Shown: piece after piece, positions 32,919 through 41,421 of the stretch
Numbering within the stretch: the first letter of the stretch is position 1
Layout: the number at the start of each line of letters is the position of its first letter
Source of the DNA: Candidatus Saccharimonadota bacterium
Lineage (GTDB): Bacteria > Patescibacteriota > Saccharimonadia > Saccharimonadales > Saccharimonadaceae
Direction of reading: 5' to 3'
DNA: 64,000 nt
Assembly (NCBI GenBank): GCA_017406775.1
Contig: JAFQXV010000014.1
Span: forward strand, 86,962-150,961
The notes under the pieces: model-generated
What the model was told of the DNA's origin: nothing
What the model saw: the letters and a program-made list of their open reading frames with translations, nothing else
Database searches by the model: none
Translations under genes and position numbers: made by a program

Positions 32919-34163
32919 ATGGATGAAAATAAGCACTTCGTAACTGGCTTGGATGTCGGCACCGAGAACGTCCGTGCCGTCATCGCCAGCGTTAATAAAT
33001 CAGGCGAAATCGCCATCGTCGGCTTCAATGAAGGTAAATCCGCCGGTATGCGAAAAGGCGTACCTGCCAATCTTGCCGGTCCCGCCGGTGCCATTGACAA
33101 AATGCTCGGTGATGCCGAGCGGATGGGTGGCTATGATGTCCGCAGTGCTTATGTTTCTATCAACGGCTCTACTGTCATTTCCACCCACACCGAAGGCATG
33201 ATTGCCGTCGGCACCGTAGAACACGAGATTAATGACGAAGATTTAGACCGCGTCGAGGACGTCGCTGTATCGGGGCGCATCCCGGCCAATCGCGACGCGC
33301 TAGACGTAGTCCCTCTGGAGTATGCCCTAGATGGCCAGGGCGGCATTAAGAACCCCCTCGGTATGTCCGGTGCCCGCCTCGAGATGCGCGCCAACGTGAT
33401 TTCCGCCCTCACTCCCAATTGTGAGAATTTGAAGAAAGCCACTATGGCCGCCGATGTCGAGGCCCTCCGTCTTGTTCCGAGCCCCGTTGCCGCCGCAAAA
33501 GCAGTCTTAAACGAGAAGCAAAAGGAAAACGGCGTCGCCGTCGTTGATTTTGGTGCTACCACTACCGGTATTGCGGTTTACGAGGAAGGCGATCTCCAAT
33601 ATGTCGGAGTCATTCCAGTGGGTTCCAATAATATCACCAACGACCTTGCCATTGTCCTCGCCATTGATCCCGACCTCGCCGAGGAAATCAAGACCCGCTT
33701 CATCACCGGCGATTTTGATTCCGAGAAATCCATCGCCATCAAAGTAGGGAAGAACGGCGAGCGCACCTTTGACCGCAAAGAAGTCGAAGCAGTCGTCAAA
33801 GCCCGTCTTGATGAAATCTTCGCCGAAATCCGTAAGAAGCTCAAATCCGCCCACTACGACCAGCGCCTCCCAGAGGGTATCATACTCACTGGTGGTGGCG
33901 CCAAAATGCGCGATATCGACATTTTCGCGAAACAAGCCCTCGAGGCCTCCGTCAAAATCGGTATCCCTGTGGCGCTAGGCGGCGTTGCCGAATCCGTCGC
34001 TAGACCCGAATTCGCCGTCGCTGTCGGTCTCGCCATCATCGCCGCCGAGTCTGGCGACCTGCCGCCAGTTAGTGGCAAGAAGTCTAAGAAACAGAGCAAA
34101 AAACCCTCCGCCCCCGGCGCCAATCCTTTCACCTTCATCAAGAAACTCTTCTCCAAGTTTTAA
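32919..34163 (+). CDS. ftsA: Cell division protein FtsA
   Basis: Actin-like ATPase that tethers FtsZ to the membrane. The 414-residue protein starts VTGLDVGTENVRAVIA (phosphate 1), has the 1C domain, VAVVDFGATTTGIAVYEEG (phosphate 2) and GIILTGGGAKMRDID (adenosine motif). The C-terminus is a Lys-rich linker followed by an amphipathic membrane-targeting helix (NPFTFIKKLFSKF). Codons are notably C-ending compared with most of the window. The usual partner ftsZ is 6.1 kb downstream, with the DGR between them. Confidence 0.95.
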   Translation: MDENKHFVTGLDVGTENVRAVIASVNKSGEIAIVGFNEGKSAGMRKGVPANLAGPAGAIDKMLGDAERMGGYDVRSAYVSINGSTVISTHTEGMIAVGTVEHEINDEDLDRVEDVAVSGRIPANRDALDVVPLEYALDGQGGIKNPLGMSGARLEMRANVISALTPNCENLKKATMAADVEALRLVPSPVAAAKAVLNEKQKENGVAVVDFGATTTGIAVYEEGDLQYVGVIPVGSNNITNDLAIVLAIDPDLAEEIKTRFITGDFDSEKSIAIKVGKNGERTFDRKEVEAVVKARLDEIFAEIRKKLKSAHYDQRLPEGIILTGGGAKMRDIDIFAKQALEASVKIGIPVALGGVAESVARPEFAVAVGLAIIAAESGDLPPVSGKKSKKQSKKPSAPGANPFTFIKKLFSKF

Positions 34164-34196
34164 CAAATACTCCTCACGATAACCCCACTCATCGAG

Positions 34197-34230
34197 CAAA
34201 CTTTATAAACATTGACAAACTTTATAAAGT
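34197..34230. repeat. Direct repeats caaactttataaa with a palindrome
   Basis: The 13-mer occurs at 34197-34209 and 34216-34228 (19-bp period). The second copy contains the perfect palindrome actttataaagt (34219-34230). It lies in the 211-bp gap before the DGR target gene and could be an operator; nothing else recognisable lies there apart from the promoter. Confidence 0.5.
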
Positions 34231-34305
34231 TATGCCACCGCCGAAATGTTAAAATAAACATCCGGCTTACGCAAAGTTTAAGAACACAAAAACCACAAAA
34301 CCCTC

Positions 34306-34334
34306 TTGCATTTTATTCATAAGCACTATATAAT
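34306..34334 (+). promoter_or_regulatory. Sigma-70 promoter of the DGR target gene
   Basis: TTGCAT (34306-34311) and TATAAT (34329-34334) are spaced by 17 bp. The ATG lies 40 bases downstream, so this gene has a leader, with AAGG near 34364 as a weak ribosome-binding site. Confidence 0.75.
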
Positions 34335-34374
34335 ATAATCATTAAGATTACACGCTAACACATAAGGTCATCGG

Positions 34375-37263
34375 ATGAAAGGAAGAATAACAAAAACCAT
34401 TTTGATAGTGTCTAGCCTCATGACGGCTAGTGTTTTGTTCACTAATAATACCACCCCTGCTTTCGCCGACAACACCATCTCCCTCAGCGTCAGTAGCAGT
34501 AGCGTAGTCTTAAACCTAGTCCCCACTTCCGTTAGTGGCACTTTCTCTAAGTCTCCAGCTCTAGATATTTCTGTTTCTCTCACTGGCGCTGGTGGCTATA
34601 CCCTCGGTATTCACTCCGCTACTACTGGTGCCAATAACACTAAGCTCATCAATACCACCGATAACACCAAGTCTTTCACCTCCATCTCCTCCGCTTTGTC
34701 CGAGAGTGACTTCTCTAGCTCCTCTAACACTCAGTACAATAATCAATGGGGTTATCTACCTAGCAAGTTTCATTCCAGCGACAATTCTTCTTTCCTCCCT
34801 TCGCCCACGGAGACTGGCGATATCCTAGACCAAACTACCGGTACCAATGATTCGGGTGATTATACTATAACCATTGGTGCTAGAGCGAACACCGAAACCA
34901 CAGTCGGCTCCTATACTGGCACTTTCGTCATCACGGCTATTGCCAATCAGGCTTGCAATCCTCTCGCTACCACTATTGGCGAAGCTCTCTGTATGCAGGA
35001 TATTTCTGGCGATAACCCAAACGCTGATGCCGTAATTAATTCTATGGTAGAAGGCCGGCAATACGTCCTAAAGGATAATCGTGACTGGAAAGAATACTAC
35101 GTAGCCAAAATGAAAGATGGTCGTGTCTGGATGACGCAGAACCTAGACCTAGACCTAGAAACCACGCCAGATAATGTAGCCGCCCTGACTCATGCTAATA
35201 CAGACCTGGGTTGGACCACTAATGATACTACTGCTACCTGGACTCCCAGTACTGCCACAGCTACTACGGCATCAGGCTATGGTAGCAACACTAATACCGC
35301 ACCTCGCTCTTTTGATTCTGGCGATACCTACCGCTATGTTTCTACTACCGGCACTACTACCAGCTATTCCACCAAGTCTGCCTGCGAAACCGCCCACACG
35401 GACGGCACCTGCCCCCACTATCACGTTGGTAACTATTATAACTGGTCTGCCGCTGTCGCCTCCAATGATACTAGCGCCATCACAGCCAATTACACTACTG
35501 CTCCTAACTCTATCTGCCCGGCTGGGTGGAGGTTGCCCGCAGGCAAGACCAGCAATACCAGTACTGACATGGGTTACTACGGTGAGATTAACTATACCTG
35601 GGTTAATGAAGGTTTAGCCCAAAGCTATGTTACTGGTACCGACACTGCCACATATAATCCAGACAACAGCACTGGCTGGATCAACATCAGAAATAATCCT
35701 ATGTACATGGTGGCAGCAGGGTATAAGAACGGCACCAGTAGCGTTTCCAGCCTTGACTCCTATGGTTACTTCTGGACTAATACAGTCTATAGTGGCACCA
35801 CCGCATACGCTCCTTATGCTTACAATTCTGGGCTTTATCCCACTTATTACAATTCTACCAGCTCCGCAAGAGGTAGAGGTATGTCAATCAGGTGTGTAGC
35901 TCGCCAAGCCAATACCGGCTCTACCACCATCACCTTTGATAAGAACGCTGCGGACGCCACTGGCAGTATGAGTAACCAGACTTATAATGCTAATACACTT
36001 AGCACCTTACCCGCTAATGGCTTTTCTCGCACTGGCTACGCCCTCAATAGTTGGAACACCGAGCCTGACGGTAGCGGCACTTCCTACGCTGATGCTGGTC
36101 AGTTCTACGCTAAGACTGGTACCGAGGCCACAAGTGTCACTCTCTACGCCCAGTGGGATAAGGTCTACACCATCACCTTCAGCATTGGCGCCAACGCCAC
36201 CGGCATCTATTTTGACGGCACTACCTATACTAATGGGCAGACCGTCCAAGCTATAGAAAACCAAACCTACCAGATTTCCGGCGTCTTCCCGACTAAATAC
36301 GGCTTAGGTAGCTGGTCCGCCACTGCCGGTACTATAGCTAACACTACTGCTCCTACTACTACCTATACTGTAGCGAGTAATGCCACCATTACTGTCACCG
36401 GCACAGAAGCCACCACTAGCATTACTACCCTCACTGTTCCTACTGACCCAGTCTCTAGCAACTGTAAGAACGAAGCTGTCACTCCACAACTTGTCTATGA
36501 CCCACGTGACAACGAGGCTTACTACGTCGCTAGACTCTGTGATGGCAACATCTGGATGCTAGATAACCTCAGACTAGACCTCACCAACTCCACTGTTATT
36601 AATGCCCTTAACTCTACCAATACCAATGCTACTGATGCCCAGCTCGCCTACCTCAAAGGCACCAGCACTGGCACTACTACCGACCAATACCCTACTGCCG
36701 GCCTCTCTGGCTCAGAATGGACCACTAGTTACAGTTACTCCGTTCCTCAAGCCGCCGCTAGATGGAAGGACGACATCGCTCCTGTCACCTTCGGTCTTGG
36801 TACCGGGAAAGTGGGTGTCTACTACAACTACTGCGCTACCTCTGCCGGCACCTACTGCTGGGGCAATGGCACTAGCTCCACCGGCTCCCCCACCACAGAC
36901 CCTAACACTAGCTCTTATCGCGATATAGAGGGTGACATCTGCCCAGCTGGTTGGTATTTACCAAACTATACTGGTGAATTCGCCGCTCTCTCTTCAGCCT
37001 ACAATGGCGGCGGTACCTTAGGTGGCGATACCACATTGACTCAGGGCGTAGCCCATAACACCGCCCTTTCTACTCCCTTGTCGGGCTGCCTCAATAGTGG
37101 CAGTTCGCGCTACTACCTCGGTACGCGCGGCTACTTCTGGAGTTCTACTTGGAGCAGTACCTACAGTATGTACAGTCGCAGCGTCAACGCTACGAGTGTC
37201 GGCTACGGCAACAGCAGTCGCGACGCCGGCCTATCTATTCGTTGCGTATTAGGTAGTGTATAG
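34375..37263 (+). CDS. DGR target: secreted protein with a diversified C-terminal lectin-like domain
   Basis: A 962-residue exported protein. After a signal peptide (cleavage near TPAFA) comes a Ser/Thr-rich domain like that of the broken gene at 2841. Residues about 235-507 form a first Fib_succ_major/C-type-lectin-like domain (ICPAGWRLP ... GMSIRCVA). Residues about 512-680 hold InlB-type beta-grasp repeats (ITFDKNA...LYAQWD). Residues about 690-962 form a second lectin-like domain (ICPAGWYLP ... GLSIRCVLGSV) whose last 63 residues are the variable region. No membrane anchor or sorting motif is visible, so attachment is unclear. Diversified Tyr, Ser, Arg and Asp positions probably form a ligand-binding surface. 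Confidence 0.93.
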   Translation: MKGRITKTILIVSSLMTASVLFTNNTTPAFADNTISLSVSSSSVVLNLVPTSVSGTFSKSPALDISVSLTGAGGYTLGIHSATTGANNTKLINTTDNTKSFTSISSALSESDFSSSSNTQYNNQWGYLPSKFHSSDNSSFLPSPTETGDILDQTTGTNDSGDYTITIGARANTETTVGSYTGTFVITAIANQACNPLATTIGEALCMQDISGDNPNADAVINSMVEGRQYVLKDNRDWKEYYVAKMKDGRVWMTQNLDLDLETTPDNVAALTHANTDLGWTTNDTTATWTPSTATATTASGYGSNTNTAPRSFDSGDTYRYVSTTGTTTSYSTKSACETAHTDGTCPHYHVGNYYNWSAAVASNDTSAITANYTTAPNSICPAGWRLPAGKTSNTSTDMGYYGEINYTWVNEGLAQSYVTGTDTATYNPDNSTGWINIRNNPMYMVAAGYKNGTSSVSSLDSYGYFWTNTVYSGTTAYAPYAYNSGLYPTYYNSTSSARGRGMSIRCVARQANTGSTTITFDKNAADATGSMSNQTYNANTLSTLPANGFSRTGYALNSWNTEPDGSGTSYADAGQFYAKTGTEATSVTLYAQWDKVYTITFSIGANATGIYFDGTTYTNGQTVQAIENQTYQISGVFPTKYGLGSWSATAGTIANTTAPTTTYTVASNATITVTGTEATTSITTLTVPTDPVSSNCKNEAVTPQLVYDPRDNEAYYVARLCDGNIWMLDNLRLDLTNSTVINALNSTNTNATDAQLAYLKGTSTGTTTDQYPTAGLSGSEWTTSYSYSVPQAAARWKDDIAPVTFGLGTGKVGVYYNYCATSAGTYCWGNGTSSTGSPTTDPNTSSYRDIEGDICPAGWYLPNYTGEFAALSSAYNGGGTLGGDTTLTQGVAHNTALSTPLSGCLNSGSSRYYLGTRGYFWSSTWSSTYSMYSRSVNATSVGYGNSSRDAGLSIRCVLGSV

Positions 37264-37299
37264 ATTTTTTCCGTTGTTCCGGGCCTATTGCCCGCCCTT
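37071..37299 (+). repeat. DGR variable region (VR) including the IMH
   Basis: 229 bp aligned without gaps to the reverse complement of 39633-39861. There are 21 mismatches within the coding part and one beyond the stop (37282, TR A to VR G). All are at TR adenines; none of about 130 non-A coding positions differs. Seventeen residues change, mostly Asn to Tyr, Ser, Arg, Asp or Ala. The 36 bases after the stop (ending tattgcccgccctt) act as the likely initiation-of-mutagenic-homology region. Confidence 0.96.
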
Positions 37300-37314
37300 T
37301 CCATCAGGAAGATA

Positions 37315-37362
37315 GTGTCCCCTAGTCTTGAGAGCCTAAAGCGAACAAGACTAGGCGGACAC
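37315..37362. promoter_or_regulatory. Hairpin just downstream of VR (probable DGR target-recognition cruciform)
   Basis: Arms gtgtcccctagtctt (37315-37329) and its 16-nt partner (37347-37362) pair with one bulge, 15 bp beyond the VR homology. A hairpin at this place is required for target recognition in studied DGRs. No such hairpin follows the TR. Confidence 0.8.
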
Positions 37363-37374
37363 GGAAGAAAGGGG

Positions 37375-37380
37375 TATAAT
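37375..37380 (+). promoter_or_regulatory. -10 box before the DGR accessory gene
   Basis: TATAAT ends eight bases before the ATG at 37389. No TG extension; a -35 would fall in the hairpin. Confidence 0.5.
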
Positions 37381-37388
37381 AGAGTAAT

Positions 37389-38318
37389 ATGAAACAGCCA
37401 GCATCAGAGTTAATGAAGAAGGTAGCAGTCAAAGCCCCTTCCAAAAGGAAAATCGAAAGAGATTTCTCGCCAGCCGAGGCCAAAGAAATTTTTGGCAGAA
37501 TCAACCAGGTCAAGCTAGCCAATGAAGGGGTAGGCAGTATTGACCAGCTAGAGGAGCAAGCCAAAGTTGCTAGACGCAAAGATAAAATTCGCAAAATCAA
37601 AAAATTTGCCAAAGAAATGGAAGTCGGCAATCGCGATAAGATCATTATTTTCCCCTCGTATTCAAGGAATAAAGACGAACTAACTTGGTACAAAATGGGC
37701 AATTTTTCGGCACTATACTATTTGTATAGAATGGCCGACCGAATGGGAAAAACCCCTAAGCCTCAAAAGGACAACGACCATTTTTCCAAAATGGATGTAA
37801 TTGTCAGTATCAGTGACGTAGATAAGTTTATTAAAACCGCAATGCGACTCAACGAATTCGGTCGACACGAAGAAACCTTGGATAAAGTCCACATCCTATA
37901 TCTCAAAAAGGCTTTGACCGATACGGAGCTAGCCTTATTAAAACGTACGGAAGAGCTCAGGAAAGAAGCGATGCATAATATCCTCCGCCCCAAAAAGGCT
38001 CTACCCGAAATGTTCTTGACTATATTGATGCTAGGACGGCAAGTTCTTGCAGCCACTGGCAGCATGGAAAGAGTATTTAGAGTTGAGGTTGGCGAAGCAG
38101 TTATGAAAGACGTGATGGAGCTGATGAATGTATACTACTATTATACTGGTAATATATTAGATTTAGACATTACCAAAACCGAACTCAAGAAAGCCCTCTT
38201 TAGGATTCGTGCCGGTATTGCTATACTGGGAGATGTCGACGCGATAATGCCGACCAAAGCTTGCGCCATTGGTGAGACCATTGTCAAAATTGAGCATCTG
38301 GTATCGGAACTCAAATGA
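37389..38318 (+). CDS. DGR accessory protein (Avd-like candidate)
   Basis: A 309-residue basic protein between VR and the reverse transcriptase. The last 120 residues (KEAMHNILRPKKALPEMFLTI...RIRAGIAILGDVDAIMPTKACAIGETI) look like a helical bundle similar to accessory variability determinant (Avd) proteins, which form pentamers binding the RT and template RNA. The first 190 residues (Lys/Arg-rich, then TWYKMGNFSALYYLYRMADRMG) are an extra domain not found in the ~125-residue Bordetella phage Avd. Its TGA overlaps the RT start (ATGA), so the two are co-translated. Avd assignment is inferred from position and helix pattern. Confidence 0.65.
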   Translation: MKQPASELMKKVAVKAPSKRKIERDFSPAEAKEIFGRINQVKLANEGVGSIDQLEEQAKVARRKDKIRKIKKFAKEMEVGNRDKIIIFPSYSRNKDELTWYKMGNFSALYYLYRMADRMGKTPKPQKDNDHFSKMDVIVSISDVDKFIKTAMRLNEFGRHEETLDKVHILYLKKALTDTELALLKRTEELRKEAMHNILRPKKALPEMFLTILMLGRQVLAATGSMERVFRVEVGEAVMKDVMELMNVYYYYTGNILDLDITKTELKKALFRIRAGIAILGDVDAIMPTKACAIGETIVKIEHLVSELK

Positions 38319-39586
38319 GCCATCGTGACCTCAAAAAAATGTTGGCTTTAATGCGCCGGGCGATGAAATCTTCAAAAGTTAAAGCCAATACCAAACCCAG
38401 TAAAGTTTTCCAAGATCTATTTGGGTTTATGAAAATAATGACCGACGAAGAGGCCTCTAGGTGGCTAAAAGATCCAGCAAATATGCTACTTGTAGAGTTA
38501 TATATCGCCGAACAAATTGCGCGTAAGGGCGGCAAACGCAAGACTATGGATACACACGGCTTTGAGATTAATCTATTTGAAAATTTGGTTAAGTTAAGGG
38601 ATGCTCTTATTAGCATGACCTATTATCCGAGCAGGGGTACTGTGCACATTATTCTAGACCCAGTACAACGGGAGATATTTGCCGCGCCATATGTAGATAG
38701 GATTTTACATCACTGGGTTGTCGGCACAATTATGAAATGGCAAGAAGATCGGTTATTGTACGATTCTTATTCGTGCCGGGAAGGGAAAGGCACCCTATTT
38801 GGAATTAAGAGGTTGCAGCATCATATTCTTTCTGTGTCACGCAATATGACGAGAGAAGCATATGTTATCCAATTAGATATCTCAGGATTTTTTATGCACA
38901 TCAAAAGGGATGTTCTCTATGCTCTAGTTAAGGAACGCATCGGCCAACAATTCCCGCCAGGGACACGAGATAAGCGCTACCAAGTATTATTATGGGCGAT
39001 TAAGCAAGTAATTTTCGACGACCCTACCGAAGGAGTCAGACTCCAGGGCACTTATCGTGACTGGATTGGCTTGCCAGACGACAAGAGTTTAATGATGCAA
39101 CCAAAAGGCCGGGGTATCGTCATCGGTAATTACACCTCGCAGACATTTTCTAATATCTATCTAGACCCATTGGATCGATTTATCAAATTCACTCTAGGAT
39201 ATAAGCACTACGGGCGCTACGTGGATGATTTTTATATCGTAGTAACTAAGGAAGAATTGTCGCAAGCAAAGCAAAATATCAAAGCCATTGAAACGTTCCT
39301 AGCTTCGTACGGGCTAAGCCTTAATAAGAAGAAAACCAAAATCACAGAAGTGCATCAAGGCGTGAAGTTCCTAGGTGTAATCGTAAAAGGCTTTCGCTTG
39401 TTCCCGGGCAAAAGATTAGTACACAATTTTCGTAAATCTGCCTATTTAGTATCGGCCGGGATCAAAGACCCAGAAGTGATTACATCATATCTGGGGATGT
39501 TCTCTCACCTCGATGCTGGCAAAATTAACCGGCAAATTTTTGAAAGTGTGGGCTGGAATTATGTTTATAATTCCAAAAAACGCTAA
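38315..39586 (+). CDS. DGR-type reverse transcriptase
   Basis: A 423-residue RT that copies the template RNA with adenine-specific errors. The palm has LDISGFFMHI (motif 3, first Asp), the DGR-diagnostic motif 4 IGNYTSQ near residue 272 (SQ rather than the SP of retrons and group II introns), and YVDD in HYGRYVDDFYIVV near residue 303. The thumb region follows (LSLNKKKTKI, VKFLGVIVKGFRLFPG). No endonuclease or maturase domain is present, as usual for DGRs. It overlaps the accessory gene by four bases. Confidence 0.95.
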   Translation: MSHRDLKKMLALMRRAMKSSKVKANTKPSKVFQDLFGFMKIMTDEEASRWLKDPANMLLVELYIAEQIARKGGKRKTMDTHGFEINLFENLVKLRDALISMTYYPSRGTVHIILDPVQREIFAAPYVDRILHHWVVGTIMKWQEDRLLYDSYSCREGKGTLFGIKRLQHHILSVSRNMTREAYVIQLDISGFFMHIKRDVLYALVKERIGQQFPPGTRDKRYQVLLWAIKQVIFDDPTEGVRLQGTYRDWIGLPDDKSLMMQPKGRGIVIGNYTSQTFSNIYLDPLDRFIKFTLGYKHYGRYVDDFYIVVTKEELSQAKQNIKAIETFLASYGLSLNKKKTKITEVHQGVKFLGVIVKGFRLFPGKRLVHNFRKSAYLVSAGIKDPEVITSYLGMFSHLDAGKINRQIFESVGWNYVYNSKKR

Positions 39587-39632
39587 CCATAAATCCTTAC
39601 TCCCTATTATTTGGAAATTTTAACCTTATTTG

Positions 39633-39861
39633 AAGGGCGGGCAATAGGCTCGGAACAACGGAAAAAATCTATACACTACCTAATACGCAACGAATAGATT
39701 GGCCGTTGTTGCGATTGTTGTTGCCGTTGCCGACACTTGTAGCGTTGACGTTGCGATTGTACATATTGTTGGTATTGTTCCAAGTAGAACTCCAGAAGTT
39801 GCCGTTCGTACCGAGGTTGTTTCGCGAACTGCCACTATTGAGGTAGCCCGACAAGGGAGTA
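39633..39861 (-). repeat. DGR template repeat (TR), on the strand opposite to the RT
   Basis: Reverse complement of VR with adenines at every changed position; 18 Asn codons (AAC/AAT) in the coding-equivalent frame mark mutable sites, 15 of them changed in VR. The A-rich template strand is the minus strand, so the template RNA must run leftwards, converging with the RT gene that ends 46 bp away. An ORF across it has no start signal worth noting; it is a template, not a gene. Confidence 0.95.
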
Positions 39862-40205
39862 AGGTTTTTATGGCGAATCAGCGTTCTACCAAAATATGTT
39901 GCAACACAGGCGCAAGCGACAGACAACAATCCCATGAGGGGGCGTAAGAGGCAATTTAATTCATCCACCTCACTATGAGAGAGATGAATTAGGCTAGAAT
40001 TAATTAATAGCCGAAGACTCTGCTCGTCGCAGAGTAAGCTCTTTGCCCTTACATTTTAAGGTGCTAGCACTATGGTTAAGTCTTTAGTAAAAATTTCACC
40101 AATTACCCTCTAGTGCGCTCGCTTTCCAATATAATTATAATATGTGTTGCTCGGGATCAGATTCGTATTCCTGAGAACGCCTCAATATTTCCTAGCATTT
40201 AGCCC
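39862..40205. other. TR leader region, no protein gene seen
   Basis: This 344-bp stretch should contain the minus-strand promoter and 5' part of the template RNA. A stem-loop actctgc-tcgtc-gcagagt lies at 40017-40035 and a weak one near 39960-39988. No clear minus-strand -35/-10 pair could be assigned. Confidence 0.5.
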
Positions 40206-40234
40206 TTGATAAAACCCCTTTTTCGGTGTATACT
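40206..40234 (+). promoter_or_regulatory. Sigma-70 promoter of ftsZ
   Basis: TTGATA (40206-40211) and TATACT (40229-40234) with 17-bp spacing; GAGGTGA ribosome-binding site seven bases before the ATG. ftsZ thus has its own promoter after the DGR. Confidence 0.78.
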
Positions 40235-40260
40235 AGTCTTAAAGTAAAGTGAGGTGATTT

Positions 40261-41421
40261 ATGCCAGAAGTTAAACCAACAGAGGTGGAAAGTAAAGCAA
40301 GTATCAAAGTAGTAGGTGTAGGTGGCGCCGGTGGTTCAGCAGTTGAGCGCATGAAAGAAGTGGGTCTTTCTGGCGTGGAGTTTGTCGCTATCAATACTGA
40401 TGCCCAGGCCCTCCATCACTCCCCGGCCGACGTCAAGGTACATATCGGCAAGGGCTTAGGTGCCGGCGGTGATCCTGAGAAAGGTCGCGAGGCCGCCGAG
40501 GAGGGTCGTGAAGCCATTGATAAGGCTCTCGATGGTGCCGATATGGTATTTATCACCCTAGGTGCCGGTGGCGGTACCGGTTCCGGTGCTGGTCCGATTG
40601 TTGCTGAGGAAGCCCGTAAGAAGGACATCTTGACCGTTGGTGTCGCCACCAAGCCCTTCACCTTCGAAGGCGCTCGTCGCAAGGCCAACGCCGATGTCGC
40701 TATTGACAAGCTCGCCCGTCAGGTCGATGCATTAATCACCATTCCGAATGACAGATTGCTCCAGACCATCGACCCCCGCACCCCGCTCCTCGAGACCTTC
40801 AAAATCGCCGACGATGTCCTCCGCCAAGGCGTCCAGGGCATCTCTGAGCTCATTACCGAGCATTCATTAATCAACCTCGACTTCGCCGATGTCAAAGCCA
40901 TCATGAAGAACGCCGGCTCCGCCCTAATGGGCATCGGTCGCGCCAGCGGGGAAAACCGCGCCGTCATCGCCGCCCAGCAAGCCGTCGAATCGCCACTCAT
41001 CGAAGTCAAGATTGAAGGTGCTCGCGGCGTACTATTCTCTGTAGCTGGCGGATACGATATGTCTATGAGTGAAGTTCAAGAAGCCGCTGAAGTCATTACC
41101 GGCTCAGTTTCTCCTGAAGCTAATATTATCTTTGGTGCTTCAATTCGCCCAGAGCTAGAAGACGAAATCATTGTGACAGTCGTAGCAACTGGTTTTGATT
41201 CCGATTATTACAATGACGAAGCAAACATCCGACCAGAAACTAATTTCGAAAACGAAAAACCAGAGGCCGAAGCTAAAGATTTTGCAACCGATAATAAATC
41301 AAACATGTGGGATTCAATTAAGAGTGACCCAACGCCAGAGCCTGCTCACGACAATGATGACGATATGGATATTCCACCTTCACTTAGAGATCGCCTCAAG
41401 AACAGGAAGAAAAAAGATTAA
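40261..41421 (+). CDS. ftsZ: Cell division GTPase FtsZ
   Basis: Tubulin-like protein forming the division ring. The 386-residue protein has the nucleotide-binding GVGGAGGSAVERM and the tubulin signature GAGGGTGSGAGP, the T7 loop (NLDFADVKAIM) and a C-terminal tail MDIPPSLRDRL corresponding to the FtsA-binding peptide. The linker is acidic. Codon use changes inside the gene: C-ending and GC-rich up to about 41000, AT-rich afterwards. It precedes nrdR by 15 bp. Confidence 0.97.
   Translation: MPEVKPTEVESKASIKVVGVGGAGGSAVERMKEVGLSGVEFVAINTDAQALHHSPADVKVHIGKGLGAGGDPEKGREAAEEGREAIDKALDGADMVFITLGAGGGTGSGAGPIVAEEARKKDILTVGVATKPFTFEGARRKANADVAIDKLARQVDALITIPNDRLLQTIDPRTPLLETFKIADDVLRQGVQGISELITEHSLINLDFADVKAIMKNAGSALMGIGRASGENRAVIAAQQAVESPLIEVKIEGARGVLFSVAGGYDMSMSEVQEAAEVITGSVSPEANIIFGASIRPELEDEIIVTVVATGFDSDYYNDEANIRPETNFENEKPEAEAKDFATDNKSNMWDSIKSDPTPEPAHDNDDDMDIPPSLRDRLKNRKKKD

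Follow-up and report, generated by a model that had tools for sequence, protein, structure and literature searches.

A diversity-generating retroelement with a reversed template repeat in a Candidatus Saccharibacteria genome

Results

The window analysed here is a 64,000-nt stretch of DNA from the Ca. Saccharibacteria genome G000 (720 kb, 14 contigs). A 6.1-kb part of it (34160-40261), standing between ftsA and ftsZ, carries a cassette in which a target gene (34375..37263), an accessory gene (37389..38318) and a reverse transcriptase (RT) gene (38315..39586) lie on the plus strand. The target ends in a variable repeat (VR; 37071..37299, plus strand), and the corresponding template repeat (TR; 39633..39861) lies on the minus strand, 46 nt past the RT stop codon. 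In seven relatives, including the one with the closest RT (G023), ftsA and ftsZ are direct neighbours. The cassette is therefore an insertion, whose empty site is known from these relatives and which probably arrived as one unit.

We found that VR and the reverse complement of TR align without gaps over 229 nt, as the first-pass annotation of this DNA had proposed, and that all 22 mismatches fall on TR adenines (22 of 61 adenines changed, 0 of 168 other bases). The claim that this also holds for the coding part was equally borne out, with 21 of 58 adenines and none of 135 other bases changed there. The probability that 22 random differences would all hit the 61 adenines is about 9e-15. The changes comprise 13 A>G, 6 A>T and 3 A>C, and they occur at every codon position, including two silent third positions. 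When 34 cassettes of the same genus were pooled, VR differed at 738 of 1994 TR adenines versus 39 of 5392 other bases. A repeat finder reported the VR/TR pair as an inverted repeat (238 nt, 89%), which places TR on the strand opposite both RT and VR, an orientation that the first-pass annotation does not mention.

VR takes in the last 64 codons of the target, its stop codon and 36 nt beyond, so that identity with TR runs on past the end of the coding sequence. According to sequence comparison and DNA folding, the IMH region in which VR ends contains a small hairpin, CGGGC-CTATT-GCCCG (37280..37294, plus strand); TR carries an A instead of the second G, which breaks one pair. A 16-pair stem-loop follows 15 bp past the VR end (37315..37362, plus strand), and in the DNA fold of 37270-37375 its z-score was -6.34, with 0 of 200 shuffles as good. 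Comparable stem-loops after VR (z below -2) were found in 17 of 34 cassettes. A recognition hairpin following VR is known from BPP-1-type diversity-generating retroelements (DGRs) (PMC3240598), and the stem-loop in the window occupies the same place.

The target protein (962 aa) contains two FISUMP domains. It matches TIGR02145 in four stretches (E 7.7e-25), the second domain by itself reaches E 8.9e-14, and VR closes this second domain at the C-terminus. The N-terminus, MKGRITKTILIVSSLMTASVLFTNNTTPAFA followed by DN, is signal-peptide-like as read from the sequence and ends in AFA before D. To judge from this start the target may be secreted, as described earlier, and it is possibly lectin-like, by its FISUMP family call only. 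The structure model of the target domain had a pLDDT of 34, and a profile search with this domain found no relative in the PDB. Among the VR-bearing domains scanned in the genus, 19 of 19 were FISUMP domains.

The RT (423 aa) matches RVT_1 (E 1.9e-18) and phrog_1423 (E 2.9e-72), and its best PDB match is 8ub7, a DGR ribonucleoprotein (E 6.8e-20). RTs of the DGR clade carry the motif (I/V/L)GxxxSQ. The motifs IGNYTSQ and YVDD, noted before in the window RT, are indeed present, and their columns are largely invariant across 19 relatives. In the RT tree, built without non-DGR RTs, the RTs of the genus form a single clade (support 100/100), and the window RT is placed among RTs whose TR/VR pairs are likewise adenine-biased. 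By RT, the nearest named relative is JAFWNY010000011, from sheep jejunum, with an RT identity of 69%.

Avd-type accessory proteins are present in many DGRs, not all. The accessory protein of the window (309 aa) had no family match and no sequence match, and a PDB profile search returned chance-level matches only. Using Foldseek, the C-terminal four-helix bundle of its model (pLDDT 53) could be superposed on the Avd chains of 8ub7 and 4dwl with an rmsd of ~2 A over ~105 residues (E 0.04-0.05). As both the model and the E-values are weak, we regard the protein as Avd-like and no more, with an additional N-terminal part. A comparable ORF lies close before, or overlaps, the RT start in 43 of 43 cassettes. 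The assignment of the N-terminus to MutS domain I was rejected, since it was based on one weak match (E 0.04) and no relative gave a match over the cut-off. The accessory ORFs of six loci (L093, L100, L102, L103, L107 and L108) have an extra N-terminal helix-turn-helix-like stretch, and Pfam HTH_3 was found in 3 of the 32 accessory members scanned.

A single script for TR/VR pairs was applied to the cassettes of the genus, to viral contigs and to other Patescibacteria. Within the genus, 40 of 43 cassettes, three of them from G000, yielded an adenine-biased pair, two of the 40 assignments being doubtful (L093, where each of the two copies may be TR, and L127, with TR apparently upstream). In 39 of these 40 cassettes TR is antisense to RT, and in 38 it lies at most 190 nt behind RT. 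VR is on the RT strand in 30, so that TR alone is reversed, and opposite to RT in nine others. By contrast, 64 pairs came from the 80 nearest relatives on viral contigs, and TR was on the RT strand in all 64 and upstream of RT in 63. Of the 16 pairs from other Patescibacteria, 13 were direct and three antisense; two more pairs from the same run belong to the genus of the window and are antisense. An antisense TR is an unusual cassette order for a DGR, and an earlier report of it for Saccharibacteria is possible.

In L088 (10921-11565), the closest relative, TR points in the RT direction and lies 333 nt behind RT, with a leader block in between. To judge from this arrangement, the TR unit of L088 appears to have been flipped as a whole, the order of leader and TR being kept though the unit is reversed.

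The RT was detected in 39 of 60 genomes of the same genus versus 1 of 40 genomes of the order's other families, and the other genera of the family gave a single weak RT match. MutS was not found in G000 and relatives, with no MutS_I over the cut-off in 59 genomes and no MutS_V in 20, whereas 11 of 14 control genomes were positive. ExoI, a factor that limits the editing by DGRs in E. coli (PMC12875486), was found in 19 of 20.

On the TR strand, the repeat is preceded by a stretch that may serve the TR RNA as a folded 5' leader (39862..40052, minus strand) and that includes a block shared with L088. Its RNA fold gave a z-score of -3.04, with 1 of 200 shuffles as good. The hairpin ACTCTGC-GACGA-GCAGAGT at 40035-40017 is common to L088, where one G-C pair is replaced by A-U. 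Further upstream we read a possible promoter (40053..40085, minus strand) with TTAAAAT at 40059-40053; the promoter scan did not list this candidate. The putative promoter and folded leader lie beyond the right-hand boundary drawn by the first-pass annotation (about 39862-40085).

Several cassettes fold alike upstream of TR, with a closing stem enclosing two hairpins, and Rfam holds no family for the TR leader. As MAFFT misaligned whole leaders, covariance models were built from hand-picked, N-padded pieces; this selection biases their pair counts, and only held-out matches count. In a search of 431 kb the first model, built from eight hand-cut leaders, found the held-out L096, L101 and L104 at 19-60 nt before TR, with one off-site match among those up to E 10. 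The second, with L104 as a seed, found L101, L095 and L096, and also three low-scoring off-site places. Neither model (R1 and R2) found the leader of the window itself. Two matches lay off any detected TR, L096 1932-2014 (+) and L048 558-662 (-), with E-values of 0.18 and 0.31, and are perhaps due to chance. A generic stem-plus-hairpin descriptor was discarded as unspecific, since about 45% of control windows contained it too. When an A-rich stretch ahead of the closing stem was also required, a condition chosen on the same data, it matched 20 of 36 leaders versus 98 of 600 controls.

G000 encodes three DGR RTs, which fall into separate subclades of the genus and each have their own TR and VR. 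The two further DGRs, which the first-pass annotation did not report, lie on contigs C2, C4, C7 and C13 (L034, L053, L048 and L031). In the C2 DGR a single TR goes with three VRs, all of them near contig ends. The changed adenines in these VRs number 18, 24 and 20, and only six are common to all three. Four non-adenine differences towards the 3' end of the repeat also recur in all three VRs, which is what IMH versus IMH* would lead one to expect. The accessory ORF of the C2 DGR (L002 665-1457) is broken into overlapping frames of 140 and 150 aa, by either a frameshift or an assembly error.

Discussion

The cassette described in this study is a genuine DGR, whose mutational logic is ordinary and whose order is unusual. 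It is complete, as had been claimed at first sight, comprising an RT, an Avd-like gene, a TR, a C-terminal VR, repeat identity past the target stop codon and a stem-loop after VR. Reading the sequence, we consider it the best explanation, with a probability of about 0.9, that this is a complete and probably functional DGR of Ca. Saccharibacteria; its template would be a separate small RNA. RT and its Avd-like partner would copy the TR RNA into cDNA, misincorporating opposite adenines, and this cDNA would take the place of VR in the 3' part of the target gene, so that the FISUMP domain at the C-terminus of this secreted-type protein is varied. Homing in vivo, export and ligand binding are steps that we infer. 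It is plausible, as the first-pass annotation suggested, that such variation may adapt the protein to changing hosts.

The template RNA deserves particular consideration. Since TR lies opposite RT, the template RNA and the RT mRNA cannot be one molecule. From the cassette order, the terminators behind TR and the folds upstream of TR, we infer that the template may be an autonomous, convergently transcribed RNA whose folded part precedes TR, as opposed to the avd-TR-spacer-RT transcript of the phage type. Apart from the avd-RT transcript, it would have a promoter of its own, begin with a folded leader and terminate shortly after TR. One could alternatively propose an ordinary DGR RNA, in which the reversed TR reads on into antisense RT sequence as its 3' spacer, as in BPP-1. 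This would be in line with the requirement of BPP-1 for a folded 3' spacer, which is its priming part (PMC12875486), and with the window, where no recognisable terminator directly follows TR. Across the genus, however, an intrinsic terminator lies on the TR strand 9-49 nt behind TR in 11 of 35 cassettes, versus 1.4 expected from shuffles, and in four of the 11 (C2, L096, L111 and L126) the RT-strand counterpart is missing or is another sequence. Moreover, the gap between TR and the RT stop has a median of 36 nt, and TR overlaps RT in several cassettes, so that any spacer would be antisense coding sequence. We therefore see a spacer read from antisense RT as possible but on the doubtful side.

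In retrons, the scaffold precedes the template. We tentatively entertain, at somewhat less than even odds, that the template of these cassettes is a permuted DGR RNA, in which the scaffold would stand before the template and the end directly behind TR, and whose priming would differ from that of BPP-1.

Another explanation would be that the DGR was active recently and is now dead, VR being the fossil of its last homing, and a single consensus genome indeed records past events only. Against this, none of the three reading frames (target, accessory gene and RT) is interrupted, and the sister cassettes are mostly intact and show the same pattern of variation. Furthermore, there is no non-adenine difference between VR and TR in 168 sites, so the last transfer is recent relative to ordinary drift. 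We thus hold a dead element to be improbable. Indirectly, the differently mutated VRs of the C2 DGR speak most strongly for such systems being functional. Finally, the RT also matches NCBIfam models of group II, retron and DRT RTs, but these matches are far below the cut-offs, every VR/TR difference is at an adenine and the same association recurs in 40 cassettes of the genus, which leaves hardly any room for an RT of another kind beside an unrelated inverted repeat.

The comparison with the DGR of the Bordetella phage BPP-1 (mtd-avd-TR-brt) is instructive. The two share the type of RT, adenine-specific VR/TR differences and a 3'-terminal VR in the target that is followed by a stem-loop, and the partner of RT in the window appears to be Avd-like as well. 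Unlike in BPP-1, TR of the window lies behind RT on the opposite strand, with little or no room for a 3' spacer; in the BPP-1-like order TR shares the strand of RT and is joined to it by a 3' spacer, an arrangement that the window does not have. The accessory protein of the window has an additional N-terminal part, and its target is a bacterial FISUMP protein, whereas that of BPP-1 is a phage tail protein.

A TR on the strand opposite RT is also found in the inverted DGRs of DiGReF group 4 (3 of 155 DGRs; Shewanella, Vibrio and Photobacterium), in which TR, VR and target are all opposite RT (PMC3521204). In the window, by contrast, RT shares its strand with VR and target, TR alone is reversed, and the reversal is the rule of the genus. 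The human-microbiome DGRs with Fib_succ_major targets (PMC4159848) resemble the window in that the VR-bearing target has this (FISUMP) domain; their host and cassette order are different, and neither Saccharibacteria nor TM7 is mentioned in that paper.

DGRs in CPR bacteria are already known, and the cassette alone is therefore no surprise. Like the Patescibacteria/CPR DGRs of clade 2 (Roux et al. 2021, PMC8144416), it is a cellular DGR of a CPR bacterium. The RTs sampled from other Patescibacteria belong to another branch of the RT tree, and their TR is, unlike in the window, mostly on the RT strand. The genus offers a natural set of ~40 cassettes that keep the template RNA physically apart from the RT mRNA, with little sequence on the 3' side of the template, which makes the generality of BPP-1 3'-spacer priming testable. 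Supplying the template in trans would be easier if it is indeed a short, independent RNA.

With G000, an ultra-small bacterium carries three separate hypermutation cassettes. The genome also encodes further FISUMP proteins, on C1 (2107-aa frame) and C6 (1721-aa frame), which show no match to the DGR repeats of G000. In addition, C10:571-1112 holds a diverged relative of the C13 target together with its repeat, perhaps an old VR.
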